Shown here: one piece after another, positions 35,553 to 42,992 of the stretch
Position numbering within the stretch: the first letter of the stretch is position 1
Layout of the letters: every line of letters begins with the position of its first letter
Assembly (NCBI GenBank): GCA_029559475.1
Contig: JAKQBN010000006.1
Location: 1 to 60,293, forward strand
Length of the DNA: 60,293 nt
Reading direction: 5' to 3'
Source of the DNA: a bacterium
GTDB taxonomy: Bacteria > UBA4055
Translations under genes and position numbers: made by a program
The notes under the pieces: generated by a model
What the model saw: only the letters and a program-made list of their open reading frames with translations
The model's database searches: none
Told to the model about the DNA's origin: nothing

Positions 35553-38120
35553 ATGAAGATGATAGGCATAGATCTGGGAACGACTAATTCAGCTATAGCG
35601 ATGGTAAACGAGTTCGGTAAAGCTGAAATAATACCCAATAAAGAAGGCGAGCGTATAACTCCCTCAGTCGTTCTATTCGATGACGACCAGATCATAGTGG
35701 GAAGTATAGCGAAACAGTCATGCGTAGCAGAACCGGAGAGAACTGTGTCTTCCATAAAATCCCATATGGGTTCAAGCGATTTTAAATTCGAGTATAAAGA
35801 AAACGAATATAAACCCGAAGATATTTCCGCTATGATATTAAGAAAGCTGATAGAGGACGCGGAAGCATTTTTGAACGATAAGATAACCGATGTTGTGATT
35901 ACGGTTCCGGCTTATTTCAACGATAAGCAGAGAAAGGCTACGGTCGATGCAGGTAAAATATCGGGTGTTAATGTGGCTCAGATAATAAATGAACCGACAG
36001 CAGCAGCACTTACTTACGGAATAGATAAAACCGTCAGCCAGAAGATCCTAGTTTACGATCTTGGCGGCGGAACATTTGACGTTACTCTGATGAAGGTTGA
36101 CAACGGTAATTTCGAGGTTCTTGCAAGCGACGGTGACAGACAGCTCGGCGGTAATAATTTCGACGAAAAGCTGATGATCTATCTGAACGACAAGTTCAAG
36201 CAGCAGCACGAAATAGACCTCTTCGAAGATCCTGTACTCATACAGGATCTGAGGCTGAAAGCCGAGAACGCTAAAAAAGTGCTTTCCACAAAGCTGAGCA
36301 CTACAGTATATCTTTCAGCGAAAGGAAAATCAGCAAGAATTACGGTAACGAGAAAGCTGTTCACCGATCTTCTGGCCGATTTTATAACAAGGACAGAATT
36401 ACTGATCAACGCAGTAATGACAGATGCCGGACTTCAGTGGAAAGACGTTGATCAGATCCTTCTGGTAGGAGGTTCAACAAGGATACCAGCAGTTATCGAT
36501 ATGATATCAAGAGTAACCGGCAAGAAGCCTTCTATGCAGGTTAATCCCGACGAAGCAGTAGCTTTGGGAGCATCAATACAGGCAGGAATAATCTGCGCAA
36601 AAGACCAGACTGAAAAAGTCAACGATATGGTCAGAATGAAATACGGCGCGATCAATGTTTCAGATGTTACCGCTCACAGCTTCGGAGCGATAACTCTCGA
36701 TGAATTCGATAATAAAAGAAATGCGATTATAATTCCGAAGAACAGCAAGATACCTGTTCGAAAAAGCCAGATATTCTACACTTCAACGGCAAATCAGACT
36801 CAGGTTAAGATGGTCGTTATTCAGGGTGAGGACCCGGATCCAGAATTCTGTACGACGATCGGTACTACGACCCTCGATTTTCCGCCAAAACCGGAGAATT
36901 CCCCGATTATTTTCAATTACGAATATGACGTTAACGGTATCATTCACGCTACCGCTAAAGATCCCGATACAGGTAAGAAAAGCGAAATTCAGATCGCAAG
37001 AGAAGGAGCTTTAACTAAAGAGCAGATAGATAAAAAGAAAGATAAACTGAATATGATGTTCCCGAGACGAAGGGAATATATTACAAAACAGTCTTTTTCC
37101 GAGGACACGCTTGAAAGTGTTAATGCGCAGCAGATCGCGCGTAAAGATTCCGGAGCGAGTCTAGTAACTGATGTTTTTGATTCTGTAAGTGAGAGCGAAT
37201 CCTTCGATAGCAGACAGCAGATCTATAAAGATCAGAGCAAGAATGAATCAATTGATGATGTGCTCGAGAAATCTGAAATAGAAACGATAACGGCCGACGA
37301 GCTGAAAAAGCAGATAACTGAAGAATCGTCTATACTCGAAAATCCGTTCTTGCATGAAATAAAACCTGATATAAAACCAGCTCAGAAGAATACTGAGGAA
37401 GTTATTATAAATGATAATTTCATAGAACGTTTCGATACCAATAAAACCCCGGTCAGGGAACTGTCGGACAATGAACAGATAGAAAAGATCGACAAGAAGA
37501 TAGAATCGATGTTCAGTGATGAAACAGAAAAAAAGATTTCAAAAAAGATCGTGGAAAAAGAAAGCTTCGACGATTCTATAGATCAATTGTTCACAAGTCC
37601 CAAAAAAGAAACTCCAAAAGCAGTAGCAGTTCCCGAGGTGGAGGAAGATGACATAGATTCGATCTTTGAATCATTTGAAGAGGCTAAGATAAGCAAAGTC
37701 GAAGAAGCTCCCGAAAAACCCGTCAGCAAACCGAAGGAGTTAGATGAAATCAGCATAAAAGACATCGAGAAGAAACCTGAAGATAATGATTTCGACAGCG
37801 TTTCGATGGAAGATTCATCTGTAACAGAAAGCCAGTCATTCGATGATGAGCTTGACGAGATCGGCAAGTCCGAATTCATAATAGACAGGAGCGAATATCT
37901 CACAGACGAAGATATAATGAGGATCAAAGAAGAAGGCAGCATAAAAAGCGGAATTGACGCGTCGGATATTACTGCTGGTAAAGAGGAATCATTCACAGAG
38001 GACGATGTGAACCAGCTGTTTTCTTCAGCCGATTCAAAAAAGCTTGTTCAGAATGAAAACAGATCCGATAAATCAAAAACGTTAAAGAAAGATGATATAA
38101 GTGACTGGATCGATGAATAA
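35553..38120 (+). CDS. Lidless Hsp70-family protein with long acidic C-terminal tail
   Basis: This 855-residue protein has a complete Hsp70 ATPase domain (residues 1-360): GIDLGTTNSA, NEPTAAAL, DLGGGTFDVT, and LLVGGSTRIP. The usual VLLLDVTP linker reads INVSDVTA (about 366-374). A beta substrate-binding domain follows (to about 500), ending near DPDTGKKSEIQI. The alpha-helical lid expected next is missing. Instead there is an acidic, lysine/glutamate-rich tail of about 340 residues. The tail contains six short motifs [E/Q]SF followed by acidic or small residues (residues 513, 549, 670, 706, 761 and 812) and ends KKDDISDWIDE. It is cytosolic, with no signal peptide. It overlaps pyrC by 8 bases. 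Whether a separate housekeeping dnaK exists is outside this window. Confidence 0.9.
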   Translation: MKMIGIDLGTTNSAIAMVNEFGKAEIIPNKEGERITPSVVLFDDDQIIVGSIAKQSCVAEPERTVSSIKSHMGSSDFKFEYKENEYKPEDISAMILRKLIEDAEAFLNDKITDVVITVPAYFNDKQRKATVDAGKISGVNVAQIINEPTAAALTYGIDKTVSQKILVYDLGGGTFDVTLMKVDNGNFEVLASDGDRQLGGNNFDEKLMIYLNDKFKQQHEIDLFEDPVLIQDLRLKAENAKKVLSTKLSTTVYLSAKGKSARITVTRKLFTDLLADFITRTELLINAVMTDAGLQWKDVDQILLVGGSTRIPAVIDMISRVTGKKPSMQVNPDEAVALGASIQAGIICAKDQTEKVNDMVRMKYGAINVSDVTAHSFGAITLDEFDNKRNAIIIPKNSKIPVRKSQIFYTSTANQTQVKMVVIQGEDPDPEFCTTIGTTTLDFPPKPENSPIIFNYEYDVNGIIHATAKDPDTGKKSEIQIAREGALTKEQIDKKKDKLNMMFPRRREYITKQSFSEDTLESVNAQQIARKDSGASLVTDVFDSVSESESFDSRQQIYKDQSKNESIDDVLEKSEIETITADELKKQITEESSILENPFLHEIKPDIKPAQKNTEEVIINDNFIERFDTNKTPVRELSDNEQIEKIDKKIESMFSDETEKKISKKIVEKESFDDSIDQLFTSPKKETPKAVAVPEVEEDDIDSIFESFEEAKISKVEEAPEKPVSKPKELDEISIKDIEKKPEDNDFDSVSMEDSSVTESQSFDDELDEIGKSEFIIDRSEYLTDEDIMRIKEEGSIKSGIDASDITAGKEESFTEDDVNQLFSSADSKKLVQNENRSDKSKTLKKDDISDWIDE

Positions 38121-39438
38121 AAAGATCAATAATACAAGCCTGGTCAGGCCTCTATTTAAAAAAACGGCAAAAAAACTTCTGATCAAAAACGGCACGATCG
38201 CTGATGCTTATTCTGATAAAGAATATACATCTGACATTCTGATACTTGACGGAATTATCGAAAAAATAAGCCCTAAAATTAAAGCAGACAAAGGCTGTGA
38301 TGTTATCGACGCGAAAGGAATGTATGTCAGCGCAGGATTTTTCGATATGCACGTTCATCTTAGAGTGCCAGGTAACGAACAGGCTGAAAACATCATTTCC
38401 GGAACCAATGCAGCTATGGCCGGAGGAGTTACTTCTCTCGTAGCTATGGCGAACACTATTCCGTGCGTAGATAATAAACTTCTTCTGAAGAGGAATCACG
38501 ATCAGGTAAAAGATCTTCTTGTTAACGTTCATCAGATCCCCGCAGTAACATTAAACAGGGAAGGCAAAATACTTGTAGAAATGGCTGAACTCGTAGAGAC
38601 CGGTGCGATCGCTTTTTCTGACGACGGAAGCGGGATACAATCTTCAGAAACGATGGTCCGAGCCTTAAAATGCGCAAAGAAACTCAAAATCCCGATCCTT
38701 GTCCATCCTGAAGATCATACGCTCCCGAAATGGGTAATGAACGAATCCCCGATTGCAAAAGAATTAAAGATGGCGTCCCAGCCGAATATAGGTGAAAGCA
38801 TTAACATTGCGCGCGACATCGAGATCGCAAGATACACCAAAGGTAAAGTCCATTTTCAGCATGTAAGCACAAAAGAAGGCGTAGATCTTGTAAGAAAAGC
38901 AAAGAAAGAAAAGCTTAATGTGACCTGTGAGGCAGCTCCCCATCACTTCTCTCTCACGGACGGGAAAGTCAGGACTTTATCTACAGATTTTAAGATGAGT
39001 CCGCCTTTAAGAACGCAGAAAGACGTTGATGCTTTACACAAAGGTCTCAAAGACGGAACAATAGATGTAATAGCGACCGATCATGCTCCCCACGCTCCTG
39101 AAAAAAAGAATCTCGAATTCGTTCTTGCTCCTTTCGGAGTAATCGGCCTTGAGACAATCCTCTCAGCCGGTATTACTTATCTTGTACGGCCGAAAAAACT
39201 TACTATGATAGAATTCTTAAAAAAAATAACTGTAAATCCGCGAAAGATACTTAATCTCGATCCGGATCTTTTAAAGAAGGGAAAGACTGCCGAACTGACG
39301 ATCTTCGATCCTGAACAGAAGTGGAAAGTGGACAGAAGAAAGATGAAATCGCTTTCGATAAATACCTGTTTCCACGGTGAAACGCATTACGGAAAAGTAA
39401 AATTCACGATCAATAACGGGAAGATATTCAAAGCTTGA
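38113..39438 (+). CDS. pyrC: Dihydroorotase
   Basis: This enzyme of about 441 residues (class I dihydroorotase/amidohydrolase fold) closes carbamoyl aspartate to dihydroorotate in pyrimidine synthesis. DMHVHLRVPG gives the HxH metal pair and the substrate Arg. HPED, FQHVSTKEG and ATDHAPHAPE supply the other metal and catalytic residues. The ATG at 38113 overlaps the Hsp70 stop region by 8 bases, and an in-frame GTG at 38101 is less likely. The ~20 residues before LLIKNG are longer than usual. It is the only pyrimidine gene here and is followed by a hairpin and the shikimate genes. Confidence 0.94.
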   Translation: MNKKINNTSLVRPLFKKTAKKLLIKNGTIADAYSDKEYTSDILILDGIIEKISPKIKADKGCDVIDAKGMYVSAGFFDMHVHLRVPGNEQAENIISGTNAAMAGGVTSLVAMANTIPCVDNKLLLKRNHDQVKDLLVNVHQIPAVTLNREGKILVEMAELVETGAIAFSDDGSGIQSSETMVRALKCAKKLKIPILVHPEDHTLPKWVMNESPIAKELKMASQPNIGESINIARDIEIARYTKGKVHFQHVSTKEGVDLVRKAKKEKLNVTCEAAPHHFSLTDGKVRTLSTDFKMSPPLRTQKDVDALHKGLKDGTIDVIATDHAPHAPEKKNLEFVLAPFGVIGLETILSAGITYLVRPKKLTMIEFLKKITVNPRKILNLDPDLLKKGKTAELTIFDPEQKWKVDRRKMKSLSINTCFHGETHYGKVKFTINNGKIFKA

Positions 39439-39457
39439 TAATATAAGAAGAGGCAGA

Positions 39458-39484
39458 AAAAGGCGCACTAAGTTTGCGCCTTTT
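39458..39484 (+). promoter_or_regulatory. Hairpin between pyrC and the aroE start codon
   Basis: A perfect 10-bp stem (39458-39467 with 39475-39484) with a 7-base loop (39468-39474) ends 4 bases before the aroE ATG at 39489. The purine tract AAGAAGAGG (39445-39453) lies just upstream of the hairpin. It may be an intrinsic terminator for pyrC (its T run is within the stem), or a structure that brings the Shine-Dalgarno tract to the start codon, or both. Confidence 0.7.
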
Positions 39485-39488
39485 CATT

Positions 39489-40766
39489 ATGAAAAAATTA
39501 GCCGTAGCTGGAAATCCGATAGCTCACAGCAAAAGTCCCGAGATCTTCATGCAATTATGTGCGGCATCAGGGATTAAAGCCGATTATACGCGATTGAGCG
39601 TAAAAAGAATCGAGGAAATTTTTTATTTTGCAAAATGCTACGGTATTTCCGGATTCAACGTTACGTCTCCGTTCAAGGAAGATGTATACAGACTGATTGA
39701 TATATGCGATCAGCCTGCGAACGACGTGAAAGCGGTCAATGTGATGATCAACATAAAAGGTGTGTTCACCGGGTACAACACCGACGTTTACGGCGTAACG
39801 GACACTTTGAAAGCTCAGGGTGTAGATCCCTGCGGAAAAAAATGTGTAGTGGCAGGATCGGGTGGGGCATCCAGAGCCGCGGTATGTGCTTTAAAACAGC
39901 TCGGCGCGGATGTATATATCGGCAGCCGAACGGATAATAAGGCGGAACAGATATCTGATGAATTCAAATGCGGATTCTTGAAATTCGAGCATATGAAGAA
40001 AAACCTAAAGGACTCATATCTGTTCATTCCGGCTGTAACCGCGATCGATCCTGATTTGTGCTCAAATTTTCCCGGGCTGATAATATTTGAGGCGAATTAT
40101 AAAAATCCGGCATTCCGGAATGCACCATGTTCAAAATATATTAGCGGGTATGAATGGCTTGTCAATCAGGCTTCAAAATCATTCGAGCTGTTTTTTAAAA
40201 AAGAAGCTCCTCAGCTTAAATTAAAGGACATTGTTAAGAAATCTGAAGACAAAAGGATTATAGCGCTGATCGGCCCAACACTGAGTGGGAAGACTTCGAC
40301 CGGTGAAATTCTGGCGAAACTTTTAAATTATGAATTCTATGATTCAGACGCAGAGATAGAAAAATTCTGCCGAAAGGACATTTCAAAGATCTTTCAGGAA
40401 AACGGAGAAGATTATTTCAGACAGATCGAAGAGAAGATCATAGAGGAAATTCTGTGCAAAAACAATGCAGTTCTAGCAATCGGCGCGGGTGCAATTCAAT
40501 CAGAAAGCACAAGAAGAGTTTTAAAAGAAAAGTGTTTTACGATCCTGCTGGACGCAGATACTGAATTGGCTGTTTCAAGGTCACAGAAAGCCGATATAGA
40601 AAAAAGGCCGATGCTAAGCGGCGGATGCGTTTATGAAAGAACCGGAGATCTTTTTGAATTGAGGAAGGATAATTATTTCTCTGCTGCAAATCTGATAATA
40701 AGATCTGAAGAACCTTCTGCGGAAAAACAGGCAGAAAGAATTATAAGAGAGCTGAATGCAGGATAG
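39489..40766 (+). CDS. aroE-aroK: Shikimate dehydrogenase-shikimate kinase fusion
   Basis: This 425-residue bifunctional protein joins steps four and five of the shikimate pathway. Residues 1-250 are AroE: GNPIAHSKSP with Ser14 and Ser16, NVTSPFKED with the catalytic Lys, YNTDVYG with the catalytic Asp, and a nucleotide-binding GSGGASRAA. Residues about 258-425 are AroK: Walker A GPTLSGKTS, YFRQIEE for shikimate binding and a lid with KRPML. AroK's GGG loop reads GAGA. The ATG at 39489 is the only start that keeps the SKSP motif, apart from a TTG at 39474 inside the hairpin loop. Its end overlaps aroA by 11 bases. Confidence 0.88.
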   Translation: MKKLAVAGNPIAHSKSPEIFMQLCAASGIKADYTRLSVKRIEEIFYFAKCYGISGFNVTSPFKEDVYRLIDICDQPANDVKAVNVMINIKGVFTGYNTDVYGVTDTLKAQGVDPCGKKCVVAGSGGASRAAVCALKQLGADVYIGSRTDNKAEQISDEFKCGFLKFEHMKKNLKDSYLFIPAVTAIDPDLCSNFPGLIIFEANYKNPAFRNAPCSKYISGYEWLVNQASKSFELFFKKEAPQLKLKDIVKKSEDKRIIALIGPTLSGKTSTGEILAKLLNYEFYDSDAEIEKFCRKDISKIFQENGEDYFRQIEEKIIEEILCKNNAVLAIGAGAIQSESTRRVLKEKCFTILLDADTELAVSRSQKADIEKRPMLSGGCVYERTGDLFELRKDNYFSAANLIIRSEEPSAEKQAERIIRELNAG

Positions 40767-42006
40767 TATTTTCATAAAAAGTTCATCAGTGAACGGCAGG
40801 ATCTTAGCTTATCCGTCAAAAAGCCATATCCAGAGAGCTCTTCTTCTGGGTCTTTTGAACAGGAACGGATTACTTATAAAAAATTATGCGCACTGCAGCG
40901 ATTCAGATGCTATGATGAACTGTATCAGAACTCTCGGCTCCGGTGTCGAGATTTTGGAATCAGGCATAAAAATTACAGGCCCTGAAAAATTTACGGTATC
41001 GGAACCCGACTGTAAAGATTCCGGATTATGCTTGAGAATGCTGATCCCGGTATTATGCCTGTCCGGAGATGAATACTTCATCAGATGCTCAAAGACTCTT
41101 ATTTCAAGATACAACGAATATATACCCCGCATTATGAAACAGCTAGGAGTTTGCTGCATAATAAAAAGCAATGGAATTTACGTTAAAGGCCCGATTCATA
41201 GCGGAGAAGTAAAAATAGAGGATCCCTCCGGATCCCAGCTTGTAAGCGGGCTTCTTTACGCATTGTCAAAAGTTCAGGGTTCTAGTAAGATAATAATAAA
41301 AAATCCCGTCAGTTTTCCGTACATCGAAATGACGGCGGATATTTTGAACCGTTTCGGAGCAGATATACAGTCAGAGAGAAACGGAACGATCCATATAAAT
41401 GGGGGTAAGGAATTTAACACCGGTGAGATAACTGCTGAAGGAGACTGGTCGTCGGCTTCTTTTTTTCTTGTAGTGGCGGCTATATGCGGCGAAATTGAGG
41501 TCTGCGGTCTGGATACGGACAGTTTCCAGCCGGATAAAGCGATAATAGATTATTTAATTAAAGCCGGCGCGATGGTAAAAACCTGCCCAGGTTCTATTGT
41601 AGTCAGGAAAGCTCCGCTTCAGTCATTTGAAGCCGATATAAAAGATCATCCTGATCTTTTCCTGCCGCTTGTCGTTCTCGCGCTTAACTGTGCAGGTAAA
41701 AGCAGGATATACAATTTCGAGAGGCTGAAGTACAAAGAATCGGACAGGCCTTCTGCCGTGATAAATGAACTCTCAAAAGCGGGAGCGCAGATCAGATTGG
41801 AAAAAGATCACATATCTATAGAAAAAAGCGAACTTCGATACGCAGAACTTAATCCGCATAATGATCACAGGCTCGCGATGGCGTTCGCCGCTGCGGCTCT
41901 GAATTCTGAATCAGGAATTACGATCAGCGGAATTTCATGCGTCGATAAATCTTTTCCGGATTTTTTCAACATTTTAAAAAGAATTACTTACGGGAGCGAA
42001 AAATGA
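40756..42006 (+). CDS. aroA: 3-phosphoshikimate 1-carboxyvinyltransferase (EPSP synthase)
   Basis: This 416-residue enzyme adds enolpyruvate to shikimate 3-phosphate. PSKSHIQRALLL near the start and the C-terminal KESDRP and NPHNDHRLAMA motifs carry catalytic residues. The loop usually LGNAGTAMR is DSGLCLRM here. This matches the ESGLxxRM type seen in some other phyla, which is associated with altered inhibitor binding, so this is a divergent subclass. It overlaps both neighbours (11 and 4 bases). Confidence 0.94.
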   Translation: MQDSIFIKSSSVNGRILAYPSKSHIQRALLLGLLNRNGLLIKNYAHCSDSDAMMNCIRTLGSGVEILESGIKITGPEKFTVSEPDCKDSGLCLRMLIPVLCLSGDEYFIRCSKTLISRYNEYIPRIMKQLGVCCIIKSNGIYVKGPIHSGEVKIEDPSGSQLVSGLLYALSKVQGSSKIIIKNPVSFPYIEMTADILNRFGADIQSERNGTIHINGGKEFNTGEITAEGDWSSASFFLVVAAICGEIEVCGLDTDSFQPDKAIIDYLIKAGAMVKTCPGSIVVRKAPLQSFEADIKDHPDLFLPLVVLALNCAGKSRIYNFERLKYKESDRPSAVINELSKAGAQIRLEKDHISIEKSELRYAELNPHNDHRLAMAFAAAALNSESGITISGISCVDKSFPDFFNILKRITYGSEK

Positions 42007-42992
42007 ATAGTTTCGGAAGAATTTTCAGGGTAGAAATCTTCGGAGAATCCCACGGCGAAAGTGTCGGAATCATTATAGATGGTTGTCCTGCGGGTATTGA
42101 TCTGAGTGAACAGGATTTTACAGAAGATCTCTTAAGAAGAAGATCGGGCGGCAAAGGAACTACAGAACGAATTGAAAAAGATATTCCGAATATCAAAAGC
42201 GGAGTATATAAGAACAGAACTACGGGATCGCCTATCATGATCGAATTCATTAATGAAAATAAATTATCTGATGATTATGAGCAGTTCAGAACAGTACCAA
42301 GGCCGGGTCAGACCGATTTTGTATCTTCTGTCAAATACAAGGGTTTTAATGATCATAGAGGCGGAGGTCATTTCTCCGCTAGAGTTACTGTCGGTATGGT
42401 AGCCGCAGGAGTGGTCGCCAAAAAGATATTAAAGAATATCGATTTCAAATCAAGGATAATTGAAATAGGCGGAAGCAGCGATTTTCAGAAAGTCCTTGAC
42501 AAAGCGATAAAGGAAGGCGATTCACTAGGCGGAGTGATCGAATGTTCTGTTTATAATCTTCCTGCAGGTATTGGAGAGCCTTTCTTTTATTCTCTTGAGT
42601 CTGTAATCAGTCAACTGGTTTTTTCAATTCCCAGCGTGAAAGCTATCGAGTTCGGCGAAGGCTTCGTATCAGCAAAAATGAAAGGAAGCGACTATAATGA
42701 CGTGCTTATTGATATTTCAGGCAGGACAATATCAAATAACTGTGGCGGAATTACTGGAGGTTTATCAAACGGGAACCAGATACTCTTCAGAGCCGCGTTC
42801 CGCCCGCCGTCTTCAATAATGAAAAAGCAGCAGTCGCTGAATCTTAAAACAGGAAAGCCTGAAGATCTGCTGATCAGAGGCAGACACGACGTGTGTCCGG
42901 TGCTTAGAGCTTCGGTTATTGTCGAAGCGGCGGCGGCTGTCGCTCTCTGTGATCTGATGCTGATAAACAAAACAAACATCAATAAATGTTAA
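42003..42992 (+). CDS. aroC: Chorismate synthase
   Basis: This 329-residue FMN-dependent enzyme makes chorismate from EPSP. It carries FGESHGESVG at the start, RRRSGGKGTTERIEKD, and NDHRGGGHFSAR. C-terminally it carries the RPPSSIMKKQQSL and RGRHDVCPVLRA segments. It is about 30 residues shorter than the usual 350-360. The PRPGHAD motif reads PRPGQTD, with Gln for His. That His usually lies close to the substrate, so a slightly different active site is possible. It is the last gene of the shikimate block, and no clear terminator follows. Confidence 0.94.
   Translation: MNSFGRIFRVEIFGESHGESVGIIIDGCPAGIDLSEQDFTEDLLRRRSGGKGTTERIEKDIPNIKSGVYKNRTTGSPIMIEFINENKLSDDYEQFRTVPRPGQTDFVSSVKYKGFNDHRGGGHFSARVTVGMVAAGVVAKKILKNIDFKSRIIEIGGSSDFQKVLDKAIKEGDSLGGVIECSVYNLPAGIGEPFFYSLESVISQLVFSIPSVKAIEFGEGFVSAKMKGSDYNDVLIDISGRTISNNCGGITGGLSNGNQILFRAAFRPPSSIMKKQQSLNLKTGKPEDLLIRGRHDVCPVLRASVIVEAAAAVALCDLMLINKTNINKC

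Follow-up and report, generated by a model that had tools for sequence, protein, structure and literature searches.

The hairpin between pyrC and aroEK may be a read-through terminator that doubles as a structured spacer between a Shine-Dalgarno (SD) sequence and the start codon, and we put the chances of this reading at about even. It lies in a 60,293-nucleotide stretch of bacterial DNA (the window). We suggest that a terminator-type element sits inside a pyrC-aroEK-aroA-aroC transcription unit. Some of the transcripts from pyrC would stop at the hairpin, and the others would continue past it. On the read-through mRNA, the hairpin would remain folded on the ribosome and leave initiation unblocked, and as a structured spacer it would place GAGG some 8 nt before the AUG of aroEK, as in phage T4 genes 25 and 38. 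Any effect on aroEK expression is something that we infer from this arrangement.

Anatomy of the pyrC-aroEK junction

The upstream neighbor of aroEK is a forward-strand ORF at 38113..39438 (longest form from 38101), which we take, as the first-pass annotation proposed, to be pyrC, encoding dihydroorotase. Its TGA stop codon (39436-39438) is followed by an in-frame TAA. The gene at 39489..40766, on the same strand, encodes 425 aa, starts with the ATG at 39489-39491, and is presumably the aroE-aroK fusion (aroEK) that the same annotation named. Two more forward-strand ORFs follow, which we take to be aroA (40756..42006), overlapping the end of aroEK, and aroC (42003..42992), which has an ATGA overlap with aroA.

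Downstream of pyrC, the purine tract AAGAAGAGG (39445..39453) carries the SD core GAGG at 39450-39453. A terminator-like hairpin follows at 39458..39484, in which 39458-39467 (AAAAGGCGCA) pairs perfectly over 10 bp with 39475-39484 (TGCGCCTTTT) around a 7-nt loop, with an A-tract on the 5' side and a T-tract (TTTTCATT) on the 3' side. The 4-nt spacer CATT (39485..39488) leads to the start codon. GAGG is 35 nt from the ATG in the linear sequence and 8 nt from it when the 27-nt hairpin is subtracted. The perfect 10-bp hairpin between purine tract and start, its exact position, the 4 bases left before the start, and the shortening from about 35 to about 8 bases upon folding, which is predicted, are all as first described.

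When the 50-nt gap was shuffled with its dinucleotides preserved, 3 of 5000 sequences contained a stem of at least 10 bp (loop of 3 to 9 nt, at most one internal G-U), and 7 of 1000 matched the fold energy of the gap. The predicted fold of a 91-nt stretch recovers the stem, but that stretch as a whole is ordinary (z = -1.07; 30 of 200 shuffles as good). Therefore, the signal is the local stem itself. An Rfam search of the whole window at gathering score returned a tRNA as its sole match, and the hairpin matched no RNA family there. The stem pattern occurs twice in the window's genome and once in one relative (G011) among the 13 genomes searched. An origin from a repeat or mobile element was rejected: a 71-nt query found no second full copy in the genome, only matches of 14 to 15 nt.

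The aroEK start at 39489 is sound, because M1 and K2 are invariant in all nine aligned sequences. The 16S rRNA tail is CACCTCCTTT, and the genome uses SD sites. With our own simple gene caller in place of curated annotation, GGAG and GAGG peak 5 to 8 nt before starts called blind to the SD sequence, and the overall spacing peak for such starts in the window's genome is 5 to 9 nt. An SD 4-mer at a spacing of 3 to 12 nt precedes 737 of 1300 SD-blind starts; an earlier portion of the sample gave 394 of 713. GAGG exactly 8 nt before the start is found in 25 of the 1300, compared with a peak of 54 at 5 nt. The word AACGGAG, which is SD-like, is strongly over-represented in the divergent gaps of this genome (G000).

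At aroEK, no SD lies nearer than GAGG, whose 35 nt are too long a distance in linear sequence. The anti-SD pairs at +1.5 kcal/mol within the linear SD zone and at -5.8 kcal/mol once the hairpin is removed, against a median of -5.1 kcal/mol over 1303 called starts. This agrees with the original observation that the only good SD tract stands before the hairpin. The spacer role gains likelihood from these figures, because the pairing with the hairpin skipped is near the genome norm and GAGG at 8 nt is ordinary.

However, about 43 to 45% of called starts have no SD 4-mer, so aroEK may need none, which argues against a spacer role. It also favors the main alternative, a plain leaky pyrC terminator with a coincidental GAGG. 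In that case, a reduced level of read-through would supply aroEK, which would be translated with no help from an SD, either by SD-less initiation on an A/U-rich start or by reinitiation after pyrC. We rate this somewhat below an even chance, nearly as likely as the favored reading. Background frequencies point the same way. An SD-type 4-mer falls within a 10-nt stretch 20 to 54 nt upstream at 62 to 78 of 713 starts, and the chance rate is about 9 to 11% per 10 nt. At such frequencies, the purine tract by itself counts for little.

Terminator features, transcription, and the junction in relatives

A survey of 1.63 Mb of the genome, counting either strand, placed T-tract hairpins in 40 of the 82 gaps between convergent genes, in 64 of the 573 between co-directional genes, and in 1 of the 115 between divergent genes. 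The aroEK hairpin matches the genome's intrinsic terminators in shape, with T at 6 of the 8 positions after the GC core, equal to the convergent median of 6, and a simple terminator scan did not list it. The class is thus common in convergent gaps, and this member stands between genes that are adjacent in six of seven relatives. These features, and the frequency of such hairpins in co-directional gaps, are what one would expect of a leaky terminator. Among the 58 co-directional hairpins listed for the genome, 26 occupy gaps of 33 to 90 nt. Most of these are followed by an SD and lack a good promoter match, and hairpins of terminator shape within operons appear to be routine in this genome.

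Leaky intrinsic terminators within operons are a known class. The aroEK hairpin resembles them in having a GC stem with an A-tract and a T-tract between co-directional genes. Unlike them, it ends 4 nt short of the downstream start codon and has the only SD core on its upstream side. The first-pass annotation had offered a pyrC terminator as an alternative to a T4-like spacer. The terminator shape supports the former, but the two readings are mutually compatible and each is partly supported.

The promoter type derived from the divergent gaps is cTTGAC[AT]-N17-TATATT, with 43 strict cases in 220 upstream regions. Scoring with this one modeled type revealed no match above background upstream of aroEK, the best within 250 nt being 0.6. 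The best score in 39001-39520 was 3.1. For reference, divergent gaps have a median of 8.7 and a 10th percentile of 3.2, and 200-nt coding stretches have a median of 0.7 and a 75th percentile of 3.3. The lack of a recognizable promoter makes read-through from pyrC likely, and transcription of aroEK most likely depends on it. The sequence gave no indication of a transcription start between the hairpin and aroEK, a finding that would have told against the original proposal.

The same scores bear on the possibility that a promoter of its own serves aroEK, with the hairpin merely insulating the gene from pyrC. Good promoter matches often come after a terminator in the longer gaps of the genome, and G011 has room for a promoter after its hairpin. 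At aroEK, however, there is no room between hairpin and start, and the best scores within the single promoter type modeled are at background. We regard this explanation as very improbable.

A promoter in the hairpin loop (TAAGTTTG, which we take to resemble a Bacteroidota-type motif) was considered and not favored. TAnnTTTG is modestly enriched in divergent gaps (46 occurrences versus a shuffle mean of 31 and maximum of 42), whereas TTGAC with N18 to TA...T is strongly enriched there.

We compared the junction across 13 genomes of the phylum, the window's own included; the closest named records are Candidatus Delongbacteria, besides one uncultured bacterium. aroEK is present in all 13. In two (G003 and G010) the contig ends before the aroEK start, and in 7 of the 11 readable genomes, counting the window, pyrC is directly upstream. 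Conservation of the hairpin with constant spacing had been set beforehand as a check, and at this junction it was not found. In two genomes of the same genus (G001 and G002), pyrC and aroEK share an ATGA overlap, with no hairpin. Two others (G008 and G012) have a short gap and no GC-containing hairpin; in G012, GAGG lies 8 nt from the start, which is the purine tract adjoining the start that had been named as contrary evidence. In G007, about 106 nt separate the two genes, and no stem there reaches 6 bp. Besides the window, G011, a species of the sister genus, is the only one of the 7 readable pyrC-aroEK junctions to carry a GC-containing hairpin. It follows pyrC (AAAAGACGCA-TGCGTCTTTT), is one base pair off the window stem, and stands 56 to 57 nt from the aroEK start. 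That distance supports a plain leaky terminator, and the pattern as a whole fits a terminator placed closer to or further from the start in different lineages.

The gene string itself is better kept. In six of the seven compared relatives (all but G005), pyrC is immediately upstream of aroEK, at 55 to 74% identity. aroA and aroC follow aroEK in G008 and G011 and are missing there in G007 and G012; G001 and G002 keep aroA after aroEK as far as the stretch reaches. aroEK is 45 to 47% identical to the same-genus copies, versus 73 to 74% for pyrC. ABC-F and trmH-like proteins of the same-genus genomes are 94 to 98% identical. The comparison does not support the idea that the insert arose when aroEK was replaced horizontally, because this gene is less conserved than the rest of the string in all seven relatives, including those outside the genus. 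Among 72 matching loci (8 of 80 were omitted for having less than 3000 nt upstream), we found four hairpins, 12 to 40 nt before the match start. All four were outside Delongbacteria, and none was nearer than 12 nt.

Hairpins abutting other gene starts

A wider comparison covered 1.96 Mb of two species, G000 (1.63 Mb) and G005 (0.33 Mb), and counted hairpins with a fold energy of -7 kcal/mol or lower. Eleven hairpins end 0 to 12 nt before a called start, one of which (C44) is a mis-called start. An SD 4-mer after the hairpin was found in 1 of these 11, the mis-called start. In gaps of no more than 150 nt, the corresponding figures are 19 of 29 for hairpins at 13 to 35 nt and 18 of 26 for more distant ones.

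The SD cores lie on the other side. In a comparison that includes the seed case aroEK, counts two genes in both species, and uses a 3-mer list set after the cases had been seen, an SD 3-mer was present in the 8 nt before the hairpin in 7 of 11 abutting cases versus 20 of 223 other hairpins (Fisher, P = 3e-5). Among the controls, the 3-mer occurred in 12 of the 112 remaining co-directional hairpins and in 8 of the 111 convergent ones. For a 4-mer in the 12 to 13 nt before the hairpin, a pattern that also admits the first stem base, the counts were 4 of 11 versus 8 of 112 and 5 of 111 (P = 0.005). Abutting hairpins and controls also differed in duplex energy (Mann-Whitney, P = 9e-4 and 7e-4). 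Without aroEK and G005 (n = 8), the duplex-energy comparison gave P = 0.019 and 0.011, and the 3-mer count was 4 of 8 versus 18 of 185 (P = 0.007). This enrichment before start-abutting hairpins, and not before others, argues against a plain leaky terminator with a coincidental GAGG.

With the hairpin skipped, the SD-to-start distance, read by eye, is 7 to 8 nt in 5 of the 7 cases with a 3-mer; the other two have 3 nt (9 to a second ATG) and 12 nt. The 8-nt 3-mer rule does not hold at three of the ten real abutting hairpins, those of abcF, an apaH-like gene, and trmH of G000. All ten retain T-tracts with 5 to 7 T in 8 positions, two of them read over 6 letters only. These terminator-like T-tracts, the post hoc 3-mer set, and the same-genus relatives without a hairpin at aroEK all count against the spacer role.

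In the loci of relatives, a scan found eight hairpins 0 to 12 nt from a start, all at orthologues of rimO, trmH, smpB, and an ABC-F gene (abcF), names that we presume from the protein sequences. The exact aroEK stem recurs once in the window's genome, 6 to 7 nt before rimO. The rimO hairpin is present in 5 of the 11 genomes shown (G000, G001, G002, G005, and G009), which span two genera. AGG stands at the hairpin foot in all five, and the gap to the ATG is 6 to 8 nt. In G005 and G009, one A-U pair of the stem is replaced by G-C and the T run is cut to three. The stem is thereby kept, which speaks weakly against a terminator-only role, since G005 still has T at 5 of 8 positions, within the convergent interquartile range of 4.5 to 7. 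The structure count at rimO is likewise weak, with a two-sided change at 1 of 10 pairs and an equally high score in 38 of 500 shuffles.

The rimO hairpin carries an in-frame ATG in its loop in all five hairpin genomes, with AAGG or GAGG 7 nt before it (by eye). Starting there would give MRLF[SD][IVM]MKK or MKR (L147, 715-2050, minus strand; also L230 to L233), and rimO may start inside the hairpin, with its SD in the 5' arm. The corresponding arrangement at aroEK would use AAAAAGG in the 5' arm and the in-frame TTG at 39474..39476 (forward strand), which the ORF list places on the 3' side of the hairpin and which would give MRLFIMKK...; the fold would have to open. The reading frame and the rimO parallel favor it. 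However, the TTG is a weak start at 10 nt spacing, relatives begin at the MKK ATG, and G001 and G002 have no upstream sequence encoding MRLFI. We consider a start inside the aroEK hairpin improbable.

A trmH-like gene has a hairpin 1 to 7 nt before its start in 8 of the 12 genomes shown, from four genera. Read by eye, as were the stems of genus g4, the SD words are AGGAGG directly against the hairpin in that genus (G005, G009, and G011), and CGGA, AAGGA, or CAGG before it in G003, G010, G000, and G001. In G002, CAAG replaces CAGG. At the loci L260 to L262, the first ATG after AGGAGG is past a terminator-like hairpin, and trmH there is the cleanest candidate for a split initiation region. The ABC-F gene has a hairpin 4 nt before its start in 2 of the 11 genomes shown (G000 and G009), with no purine tract before it and AAAGGG in the 3' arm. 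For smpB, a hairpin is present in 9 of the 10 genomes shown, and by eye the SD core follows the hairpin in 5 of the 8 hairpin-bearing relatives. The smpB cores and the trmH CAAG of G002 both count against the spacer pattern. For the T4 gene 25 comparison first drawn at aroEK, the SD placement, the enrichment at other starts, and the layout kept at rimO and trmH are favorable, but conservation at the same junction is not.

Relation to known systems and significance

In T4 genes 25 and 38, a hairpin between SD and AUG shortens the spacing from 27 to 11 nt and from 22 to 5 nt, according to the excerpted text of PMC3014915. The aroEK junction shares the hairpin-separated SD and AUG, here with 35 nt reduced to 8 nt, and a lineage-limited occurrence, as far as that excerpt of PMC3014915 describes the T4 cases. 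It differs in that the predicted hairpin is terminator-shaped and lies between cellular operon genes. It also differs from the T4-type split region in lacking conservation at its own junction within the genus.

In Escherichia coli thrS, a hairpin can stay folded on the initiating ribosome (PMC3936740, in the part consulted). The split ribosome-binding site of thrS thus offers a likeness, a hairpin accommodated without unfolding. However, the same part of PMC3936740 describes the thrS 5' UTR as a single-stranded region plus a long hairpin, not as a hairpin between SD and AUG.

Among the matches listed, the titles and abstract openings held no report of hairpins acting as both terminator and spacer in Delongbacteria. 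The arrangement seems to recur in this uncultured phylum. We tentatively propose, at less than an even chance, that start-abutting terminator hairpins in Candidatus Delongbacteria form a dual element, which would end some transcripts and dock the SD on read-through RNA. If true, a mechanism described for two T4 genes would also serve a cellular lineage, at several of its housekeeping genes, and split initiation would be joined to transcription termination in one hairpin. Genes 30 to 60 nt apart with a terminator between them could still be translated. The arrangement would explain how genes without a nearby SD are started, and it would call for caution with gene finders and operon predictors that treat such hairpins as plain gene boundaries.
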